33,577 nucleotides of DNA from Synechococcus sp. AG-679-C18 (lineage in GTDB: Bacteria; Cyanobacteriota; Cyanobacteriia; PCC-6307; Cyanobiaceae), in contig QCUL01000028.1 of the NCBI GenBank assembly GCA_003210755.1, forward strand, positions 1-33,577. Reading direction: 5' to 3'. The position numbers were made by a program, and so were the translations under genes. The notes under the pieces are model-generated. The model searched no databases. It was not told the DNA's origin and saw nothing but the letters and a program-made list of their open reading frames with translations. How positions within the stretch are numbered: the first letter of the stretch is position 1; every line of letters begins with the position of its first letter. This document shows positions 1 to 1,642 of this stretch, one piece after another.

Positions 1-378
1 TATTCTTGCAGTGATTGACGTCTCTTTTCTAGTTTCTTGTCTCTGCTGTTGATGTTGACGTCAGTCATTCTTTTCTCCCAGCTTGAAGGAATTGAGTAGT
101 TTCTTTGCAGATGCTTATAAATTGATCGATTGCGGACTGTAAGGTTTACATGGCGAGCCATCAACAGCTTAAACAATCTGCTGATATTAGCTTGCTTCGA
201 TTCTGCCTTTTCATTGTTCGCCTTGTGTGCAGGTCAATGGCAATTGTCTGGTTAGAGCTTCTTCCTCAGATGACCTTTCTTAAGTTCAAACCTTTGCTAA
301 AGATCATGCAAGTCATACTTGAAACAACCAATACTGTTCGGATCGAGATTGGATCATTTTTATTTTTGGGTATGGATC

Positions 379-478
379 GCTACAAACAAAATGAAGGAGA
401 TAAAGGATTCTTGCCCCAGTAGCGTCGAGCTGCTTACGAAAGGGAGATTGAGAGCGGCCTGAGAAACCGCTCTTTTTT
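379..478 (+). ncRNA. candidate sRNA ending in a strong terminator
   Basis: A promoter-like pair, TTGGAT at 349-354 and TATGGA at 371-376 with 16-nt spacing, would start a transcript near 383. The transcript would end at the terminator at 451-478, giving about 95 nt. The body is purine-rich, and a second hairpin is possible between GCTGC near 429-433 and GCGGC at 454-458, competing with the terminator stem. The size suits a cyanobacterial regulatory RNA, possibly of the Yfr2 class, but I could not confirm the family from sequence memory. The promoter match is modest, so the 5' end is uncertain. Confidence 0.4.
451..478 (+). terminator. intrinsic terminator
   Basis: AGAGCGG at 451-457 pairs perfectly with CCGCTCT at 467-473 across a 9-nt loop, followed by a six-T run. 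No protein gene lies upstream for it to serve, which supports a small RNA transcript. Confidence 0.75.
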
Positions 479-795
479 ATGTTGACATGAGATAGGACCT
501 GTTTGCTGAATAGGTTTGAAGTATCTAAGCATGTTTGTTCTGTTGCGTTCAGTTTCTTTGTATTGGGTTTTTAACTGATGAGAGCAGTGACTGCGATTCA
601 TGCAGTGCTCAAAGCTCTCGTGCTGAATGGTTCCGTCAATGTGCTATTTCAGTGATTATTTCTCCGAGCCAGTTTCATTGCTGTCGTAGGAACTTGAAAG
701 GAGTATTTGGTTTGCTTGGGCCTGCTAGTCAAAGATATGCCGACTCGATGGTTGCTGAGAATCACTGCATCAGTCGCTTCTTGTCATTGATTTGA

Positions 796-826
796 TTGCC
801 GCAAGCTTCCGTCAGCGTTCTATAAA
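796..826 (+). promoter_or_regulatory. probable promoter of first Yfr1-like sRNA
   Basis: TTGCCG at 796-801 and TATAAA at 821-826 with 19-nt spacing. The -10 element is strong and places the transcription start at about 831-834, exactly where the conserved sRNA unit begins. Confidence 0.55.
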
Positions 827-830
827 TGGG

Positions 831-898
831 GAAGCCAACTCCTCACAAGGTTTGGCTCCTCACACACCCCAAAGAAGGCTTCCTCGCCTTCTTTTTTT
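831..898 (+). ncRNA. Yfr1-like small RNA, copy 1
   Basis: A compact unit with three parts. The 5' hairpin pairs AGCCAA (833-838) with TTGGCT, and its loop reads CTCCTCACAAGG. A single-stranded linker carries CTCCTCACACACC. The 3' terminator hairpin AAGAAGGC / GCCTTCTT ends in seven Ts (892-898). The hairpin, CTCCTCACAC linker and terminator hairpin together form the known architecture of the cyanobacterial sRNA Yfr1, whose invariant single-stranded core is ACTCCTCACAC. Here the core is present almost twice, once in the loop and once in the linker, which differs from the Yfr1 I know. In Prochlorococcus, Yfr1 acts on porin mRNAs. The canonical gene lies near trxA/guaB, so this copy is probably a paralogue or a Yfr1-derived family. 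A second copy at 1576-1642 matches at 64 of 67 positions. Confidence 0.75.
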
Positions 899-962
899 AT
901 GTCTTGCCTGGACCTGCTCGGTTCAGCGCTTTCTCATCGCAGTGCTATGTGTCGAGGTAATG

Positions 963-986
963 AAGGCGAGAGGGCTCGCCTTTTTT
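963..986 (+). terminator. intrinsic terminator
   Basis: AAGGCGAG (963-970) pairs perfectly with CTCGCCTT (975-982) around a 4-nt loop and runs into six Ts. It lies only about 65 nt beyond the end of the first Yfr1-like unit. It may be a back-up terminator for that unit or the end of a separate short RNA starting near 900. Confidence 0.65.
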
Positions 987-1108
987 CATGCCATATGGCC
1001 AAACCTCCCGGCATAATCCATTTCTCGCGATTGAGAAGCCCGCGCGAGGTTGAGGGACTTTGACCTTTTTTATACAGCAATCGGAATCCCTGAACGTTAT
1101 GTTTTTAA

Positions 1109-1186
1109 AGTCCCGTCCAAGGCCAGGACTGCCCTCACAGGAAGACCTGTTGGGGCTTGCCTGACATCGGGTGTCAGATGGGCAAG
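1109..1186. ncRNA. structured RNA candidate with three consecutive hairpins
   Basis: Three hairpins follow each other almost without gaps. AGTCC (1109-1113) pairs with GGACT (1126-1130). GCCC plus ACAGG (1131-1134, 1137-1141) pair with CCTGT plus GGGC (1146-1150, 1153-1156) around an AAGA loop. CTTGC and CTGACA (1156-1166) pair with TGTCAG and GCAAG (1172-1177, 1182-1186). No long protein frame explains it. I found no match to the signatures of SRP RNA, RNase P RNA or the tmRNA tag. The strand is undetermined because the stems fold on both. A T-run with a weak GAGC/GCTC stem follows at about 1217-1246 on the plus strand. Confidence 0.4.
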
Positions 1187-1411
1187 ACGGAGATACCGGA
1201 AAGTCATACAAACGTTTGAGCCAAGACTATTTCTGCTCGTTTTTTACAGAGTTATTCACTTTAATTCATCTTTTTATTCATGCCATGAATAGGTTTATTT
1301 GGAATCGTTTTTCGTTTGCCTATCAATAATAATAACTCTAATCTAGCTCTTCAATATCTGCTCTCTTTTGAGATCATGCATTTGATTTGATTTGAGATTT
1401 TGTTTCTGTGT

Positions 1412-1452
1412 TTTTGATTGCCATGATGAAGCTATCATCATGGCAATCAAAA
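1412..1452. repeat. perfect 18-bp inverted repeat
   Basis: The 18 bases at 1412-1429 are the exact reverse complement of 1435-1452, separated by a 5-nt loop. The arms start with TTTT and end with AAAA, so the Ts are 5' and the As 3' of the stem. That is the reverse of the terminator layout, so it is unlikely to be an ordinary intrinsic terminator on either strand. It could be a protein-binding dyad, a cruciform, or a very stable RNA hairpin. Confidence 0.8.
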
Positions 1453-1540
1453 TGCCATAATCCGGATTTCCTGTTTTTGAAGATTGGATTATTTTCAAAA
1501 CGTTGAAAACTTTACGATTAAATCAGTACGTATCAGTTGG

Positions 1541-1570
1541 TTGACCGATTGGCATTGTTTCCTTAATGAT
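1541..1570 (+). promoter_or_regulatory. probable promoter of second Yfr1-like sRNA
   Basis: TTGACC at 1541-1546 and AATGAT at 1565-1570 with 18-nt spacing predict a start at about 1576-1577, matching the 5' boundary of the conserved unit. Its hexamers and flanks differ from those of the first copy, so the two copies may be regulated separately. Confidence 0.5.
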
Positions 1571-1575
1571 AGGAA

Positions 1576-1642
1576 AAGCCATCTCCTCACAAGATTTGGC
1601 TCCTCACACCCCCCAAAGAAGGCTTCCTCGCCTTCTTTTTTT
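1576..1642 (+). ncRNA. Yfr1-like small RNA, copy 2
   Basis: This is the second unit of the pair and differs from 832-898 at only three positions: one at the base of the hairpin loop, one at the loop exit and one in the linker. The 5' stem AGCCA/TGGCT, the loop motif CTCCTCACA, the linker motif CTCCTCACAC and the AAGAAGGC/GCCTTCTT terminator with seven Ts are all kept. The flanking DNA is unrelated to that of copy 1, so conservation stops at the RNA boundaries. That is good evidence that the RNA itself is the selected unit. The family assignment rests on the Yfr1 core motif and layout. Confidence 0.75.

Follow-up and report, generated by a model that had tools for sequence, protein, structure and literature searches.

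In Prochlorococcus MED4, experiments have established that the small RNAs Yfr1 and Yfr10 bind Yfr2 as well as mRNAs through a shared motif, and the resulting Yfr1/Yfr10/Yfr2 titration network is proposed to tune the carbon and nitrogen metabolism of Prochlorococcus (PMC6778093). Yfr1 (RF01116) ranges in size from 54 to 69 nt, and its motif is placed in the stretch that links two hairpins (PMC2190773). The Yfr10 family, which includes Yfr10, Yfr12 and Yfr18 of MED4, Yfr104, Syr5 and others, bears the Yfr1 motif in sRNAs other than Yfr1 (PMC6778093, PMC2518516). Yfr10 is described as displaying the motif in a loop, interacting with Yfr2 and having partly distinct targets, and its presence has been verified in Synechococcus WH8102 (PMC6778093). 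Neither the stem sequence nor the genomic place is conserved in the family, whose genes often lie beside a Yfr2-type gene (PMC2518516, PMC6778093); in MED4, Yfr10, Yfr12 and Yfr18 adjoin Yfr2, Yfr4 and Yfr5 (PMC2518516).

The window analysed here, a 33,577-nt stretch of Synechococcus sp. AG-679-C18, contains two closely similar units, w1 and w2, which very probably encode sRNAs of a Yfr10-like rather than a Yfr1 type. The Yfr10 family is their nearest known kin: the units likewise carry at least the core of the Yfr1 motif in predicted sRNA genes other than yfr1, vary across the genus in stem sequence and place, and often have a Yfr2-type gene beside them in relatives. However, the family's motif is described once, in the loop, whereas the units carry it twice, in loop and linker (the Yfr10 of WH8102 being compared by its description), and MED4 Yfr10 lies upstream of Yfr2 in the same orientation (PMC2518516), whereas the units are mostly head-to-head with Yfr2. 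The units resemble Yfr1 in the linker motif between two hairpins and in size (PMC2190773) and differ from it as separate, RF01116-negative genes present in several copies, with the motif doubled and short of its full 11 nt. Yfr2 (Cyano-1, RF01701) is a neighbour gene of the units in relatives and the partner strand of the pairing proposed below. The initial annotation had taken the units to suggest an undescribed family. This does not hold for motif-bearing sRNAs other than Yfr1 as such, in view of Yfr10, Yfr12, Yfr18, Yfr104, Syr5 and the Yfr10 of Synechococcus WH8102 (PMC6778093, PMC2518516). The main-text passages covered from the literature on these sRNAs mention neither a doubling of the motif nor a fixed head-to-head placement with Yfr2, and both look new.

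The two units and their fold

The boundaries and the identity (64 of 67 positions) initially assigned to the pair are exact, and sequence comparison agrees that the DNA upstream of w1 differs from that upstream of w2 and that conservation ends at the terminator (Table 1). Each unit begins with a 5' hairpin and closes with a terminator, the two being joined by a linker that contains CTCCTCACAC; this layout of two hairpins and a motif-bearing linker was confirmed by fold prediction for both units (fold z = -5.63 and -4.95, none of 200 shuffles being as good). The terminators (871-894 and 1615-1638) were recovered by a separate pattern scan. The predicted unpaired stretch is 13 nt long, against 16-20 nt described for Yfr1.

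A second motif copy, overlooked earlier, is present in the 5' hairpin of each unit, and the core CTCCTCACA occurs twice in each. Described for Yfr10 as a motif in a loop atop a stem (PMC6778093), this display is matched by the first copy, partly paired in w1. The linker copy reads GCUCCUCACAC in both units, which is 10/11 of the Yfr1 motif, and the loop copy reads ACUCCUCACAA in w1 and UCUCCUCACAA in w2; the full 11-nt motif ACUCCUCACAC is thus present in no copy.

Table 1. Positions, strand and basis of the features assigned to the two units in the window
Feature	Position	Strand	Basis
TATAAA, possible -10 box of w1	821..826	+	by eye; has a TATAAA counterpart in the alignment upstream of w1-type genes in five relatives
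Unit w1, predicted sRNA gene (~67-71 nt)	832..898	+	64/67 to w2; fold z -5.63; 94.4 bits to model R1, w1 being among its building sequences
w1 5' hairpin, arms 833-838 / 852-857	833..857	+	fold; two-sided changes at 5/6 stem pairs in the 61-unit alignment
w1 first motif copy CTCCTCACA, in the 5' hairpin	839..847	+	sequence, fold
w1 second motif copy CTCCTCACA, mostly single-stranded linker	856..864	+	sequence, fold
w1 terminator hairpin and T-run	871..898	+	fold and terminator scan
Imperfect palindrome ATCAGTTGGTTGACCGAT, possible operator, over the w2 -35 box (TTGACC, 1541-1546)	1532..1549	+	recurrence before units
w2 promoter-like site TTGACC-18-AATGAT	1541..1570	+	promoter scan, 9/12 consensus bases
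Unit w2, predicted sRNA gene (~67-70 nt)	1576..1642	+	identity to w1; fold; R1 match, w2 being among its building sequences
w2 first motif copy CTCCTCACA, in the 5' hairpin	1583..1591	+	sequence, fold
w2 second motif copy CTCCTCACA, mostly linker	1600..1608	+	sequence, fold
w2 terminator hairpin and T-run	1615..1642	+	fold and terminator scan

Conservation of the structure was examined in an alignment of 61 matches (57 distinct) from 53 chosen sources, a few of them from another genus. Paired cells amount to 93.5% against 78.6% in shuffles, and double-change cells to 150 against 36.2, in an alignment fitted to the model, which favours both counts. Slid structures leave 31.6-64.7% of the cells paired. 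Changes on both sides were found at 13 of the 18 pairs, including 5 of the 6 pairs of the 5' stem, and 13 double-change pairs were reached by 24 of 500 shuffles. Computation thus shows that the 5' stem carries compensatory changes.

The promoter scan of the region returned three sites against a shuffle mean of 1.7, with none for w1. The palindrome over the -35 box of w2, of which none was found upstream of w1, starts 43-44 nt upstream of 30 of the 61 aligned units with at most 4 mismatches in 18, the remaining units having 5-11. All three exact sites in the genome precede a unit; at two mismatches there are six sites in the genome against seven for the reversed control. Because the upstream regions of w1 and w2 are unrelated, the two similar RNAs may be placed under two controls, that of w2 possibly acting through the palindrome as its putative operator.

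Copies, relatives and Yfr2 neighbours

Contig C28, which makes up the window, belongs to a genome that totals 2,626,211 bases over 91 contigs at 93.67% completeness. Its 12 matches to the phycobilisome family PF00502 point to Synechococcus rather than Prochlorococcus. The genome contains five units: w1, w2 and three copies outside the window that the initial annotation did not include (C33:12193, C12:61260 and C21:40528). Further copies may be missed, since the assembly is incomplete. Relatives were searched with R1, a model of ten units, five of this genome and five from named records. Matches were found in 26 of 300 family genomes; in the genus they number 60 places in 22 of the 31 genomes, the family being absent from the other nine by this search. 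An expanded Yfr1-related family, as originally suggested, is therefore borne out by five copies here and by 1-6 per genome in those 22 genomes.

An independent two-motif pattern (CTCCTCAC-N5-20-CTCCTCAC) matched 41 of 400 family genomes, namely the same 22 of the genus and 19 of 369 others, the latter resembling, by eye, heptamer repeats or other unrelated sequence. In a phylum sample the pattern matched 30 of 292 genomes, five of them of the genus; the rest, among the matches listed, likewise appeared by eye to be heptamer repeats or unrelated sequence. Seemingly unrelated matches also occur in G193 (2/3) and G332 (1/2), and a reversed control pattern matched 5 of the 31 genus genomes. Four stem types, assigned from the matched letters, were distinguished in the 22 genomes: GCCAA/TTGGC, the type of the window (nine genomes), GGAAAG/CTTTTC (three), GATCAACT/AGTTGATC (three) and AGTTGG/CCAACT (seven). 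Terminators are present in 18 of the 22; G301, G312, G322 and G332 are known from matched letters and R1 places.

Units of typical form were also observed on three MAG contigs labelled Phycisphaerae, Gammaproteobacteria and Crocinitomicaceae (L035, L036 and L037), the last two with Yfr2 as well, and these are probably mis-binned Synechococcus contigs. A contig labelled Planctomycetota (L034, 4563-4594) has the two-motif hairpin stretch in exact form but no terminator after it, and the stretch apparently falls within the last part of a reading frame.

The ruvA/rpsO locus was compared in the seven relatives with R1 matches above 50 bits in the 300-genome search (G332, at 94.3 bits, was found later and lies outside this comparison). 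A unit was found upstream of ruvA in all seven, with both types in four (G034, G123, G239, G075), the w2 type alone in two (G101, G222) and the w1 type alone in one (G289, where the R1 match on C53 arises by construction, L039 being among the R1 sequences). The local pair is thus a kept feature. The w2 type of six relatives shares 60-64 of 67 positions with w2. In relatives, the loop of w1-type genes reads CTCCTGAC, and the DNA upstream of these genes can be aligned with that upstream of w1. In its body, w1 is nearer to w2 (64/67) than to the w1-type genes of four relatives (54-55 of 72 columns), a likeness that may stem from gene conversion.

Cyano-1 (Yfr2) was detected in all 31 genus genomes (29 above cut-off) at 108 places. 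Of the 60 genus units, 31 are head-to-head with a Yfr2 at 78-86 bp (25 of them at 81 or 82), five are divergent from one at 321-454 bp and five are tail-to-tail at 53-72 bp, which gives 41 units with a Yfr2 no more than 500 bp away on the contig and 19 units without. The adjoining Yfr2-type gene typical of Yfr10 in Prochlorococcus is accordingly seen in many genus units and in the C21 copy, the only one of the five in this genome with a Yfr2 within 500 bp, the other four being on contigs without any. RF01701 gave no match in the window, units included, at the gathering cut-off or at E 10; three of five w1-type genes in relatives have a Cyano-1 match at 86 bp, which w1 lacks.

The 5' GUGAGGAG of Yfr2 is complementary to the unit motif. 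Plain co-folding spoke against pairing between w1 or w2 and the two Yfr2 of the genome, in that 93-98 of 100 shuffled units equalled or surpassed them; shuffled units are a poor control here because shuffling destroys the unit fold, and accessibility energies were used instead. With opening energies counted, the best contact is the motif on the GUGAGGAG region of Yfr2 in 10 of 11 divergent unit-Yfr2 pairs picked from loci in hand (five by the loop copy, five by the linker copy; the exception is L103). Against 40 shuffled Yfr2, at most one was as good for seven of these pairs, three for two pairs, seven for one and 17 for one. On the C1 Yfr2 of this genome all five own units have their best contact at the anti-motif, while on the diverged C21 Yfr2 none of the five chose that place. 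In the same comparison with 40 shuffled Yfr2, four were as good for w1, three for w2 and none for canonical Yfr1, and the predicted Yfr2 pairing energies of w1 and w2 are modest to weak.

The C21 unit (L114, 2883-3094) has CTTCTCACA as its loop motif and a divergent Yfr2 with GAGAAG, a possible matched change; at L057 the same CTTCTCACA change in the unit goes with an unchanged Yfr2. With one case for and one not, co-variation of a unit with its own Yfr2 is not claimed.

Probable function and rival explanations

It is probable that w1 and w2 encode trans-acting sRNAs of about 67-71 nt of the Yfr1/Yfr10 motif class, two-headed, which pair with Yfr2 and with ribosome-binding sites. The computed part of this explanation comprises sequence, predicted fold, covariation, copy number, synteny and the nearness of yfr2 in relatives. 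Transcription, the pairing with Yfr2 and mRNAs, the action of both motif copies and the operator are its putative components, the mechanism being inferred from what Prochlorococcus experiments have shown for Yfr1, Yfr10 and Yfr2. Each RNA would present CUCCUCAC twice, once in the 5' hairpin loop, a Yfr10-type display, and once in the linker before the terminator, a Yfr1-type display. It could mask GAGGAG-type ribosome-binding sites by pairing, and could also pair with the 5' GUGAGGAG of Yfr2, leading to mutual titration. About half of the genus units are head-to-head with yfr2 across ~81 bp; at the site of w1, three relatives carry this yfr2, which the window lacks.

A more extended proposal is put forward tentatively: the two-headed sRNA might hold two Yfr2, or one Yfr2 and an mRNA, its gene being coupled head-to-head to that of its antagonist, with ~81 bp of shared DNA of fixed length between them, and this gene pair having been copied around marine Synechococcus genomes. 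A double-motif member that reaches six copies in a genome and frequently faces a Yfr2 gene would alter the stoichiometry of the network in marine Synechococcus. Such an RNA would also provide a natural test of target selection by loop and linker display, since both are present in one molecule, where PMC6778093 compared two RNAs.

The rival that survives best, although it is rather unlikely, is a single-headed Yfr10-like sRNA in which only the linker motif is active, the loop copy being either a relic or part of the structure of the 5' hairpin. Among the 61 units, CTCCTCAC is exact in the linker of 56, in the loop of 39 and in both of 38, counts to be read with R1 having been built from two-motif units; the loop copy is therefore less constrained than the linker copy, as this rival would predict. 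Three bases of the w1 loop copy are predicted to be paired in a small inner stem (unpaired probability 0.04-0.18), and the CTCCTGAC loops of relatives' w1-type genes point the same way. Against this rival, the 22 genomes of the 31 display the loop copy on four stems of unrelated sequence, and it is the preferred contact in five of the 11 pairs from relatives.

That the units are extra copies of yfr1 itself is very improbable, even though motif and two-hairpin layout are common to both and the unit size is inside the Yfr1 range of 54-69 nt (PMC2190773). The Rfam Yfr1 covariance model, proposed at the outset as a check, gave no strong match: RF01116 did not match the units at the gathering cut-off or at E 10, and the Rfam search up to E 10 returned nothing related. 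Its sole match in the genome is the canonical yfr1, a separate gene (C9:65565-65621, 64.2 bits) between guaB (IMP dehydrogenase) and trxA (thioredoxin), and across the genus every one of the 31 genomes has a single match above cut-off, two genomes having one extra below it. The reading of the units as Yfr1 does not stand: w1 and w2 lie upstream of ruvA and rpsO, the guaB-trxA place, typical of most Yfr1 homologues, is occupied by the canonical gene, and the 11-nt motif is incomplete. Orthology to yfr1 was rejected on the RF01116 result and the canonical yfr1 elsewhere in the genome.

It is similarly improbable that the units belong to a dispersed repeat or palindromic element that gives rise to no separate transcript. 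The presence of five similar copies in the genome and the longer stretch shared around w1 and the C33 copy would suit such an element, but conservation ends at the terminator, the upstream palindrome is fixed at 43-44 nt, the stem covaries and the place before ruvA is kept. Least probable of all is a leader or attenuator of a longer transcript, for which the units are suitably placed (same strand as ruvA, 348 and 1092 bp before it) but each ends in a strong terminator of its own and other copies are found at other places.

Further elements around the units

Several other stretches of the region were observed. A conserved stretch at 368-481 (+) ends in a terminator-like hairpin (GAGCGGCCTGAGAAACCGCTC followed by a T-run), is ~80% identical in L083, L084, L087 and L092, with lower similarity at three further loci, and is possibly another small RNA. 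A second terminator-like hairpin lies at 963-986 (+), ~70 bp after w1, and is kept in the C33 copy. Between the units, at 1412-1452, there is a near-perfect inverted repeat, TTTTGATTGCCATGATGA...TCATCATGGCAATCAAAA.

The stretches 1006-1168 and 1201-1233 (+) represent a fragment of a different multi-copy element; they are 92% similar to C33:12448-12611 and do not include the first part of the C33 copy. Yfr103 is a multi-copy sRNA of 290-328 nt with a palindrome at -29 to -58 (PMC5069720). The units, also multi-copy and with an upstream palindrome, were considered as Yfr103 and rejected in view of the length of its paralogues. The element of 1006-1233 may instead be Yfr103: it has 2-5 matches each in 6 of the 31 genus genomes, in some directly after a unit, and its intact copies have CTCAATAG...CTATTGAG upstream.
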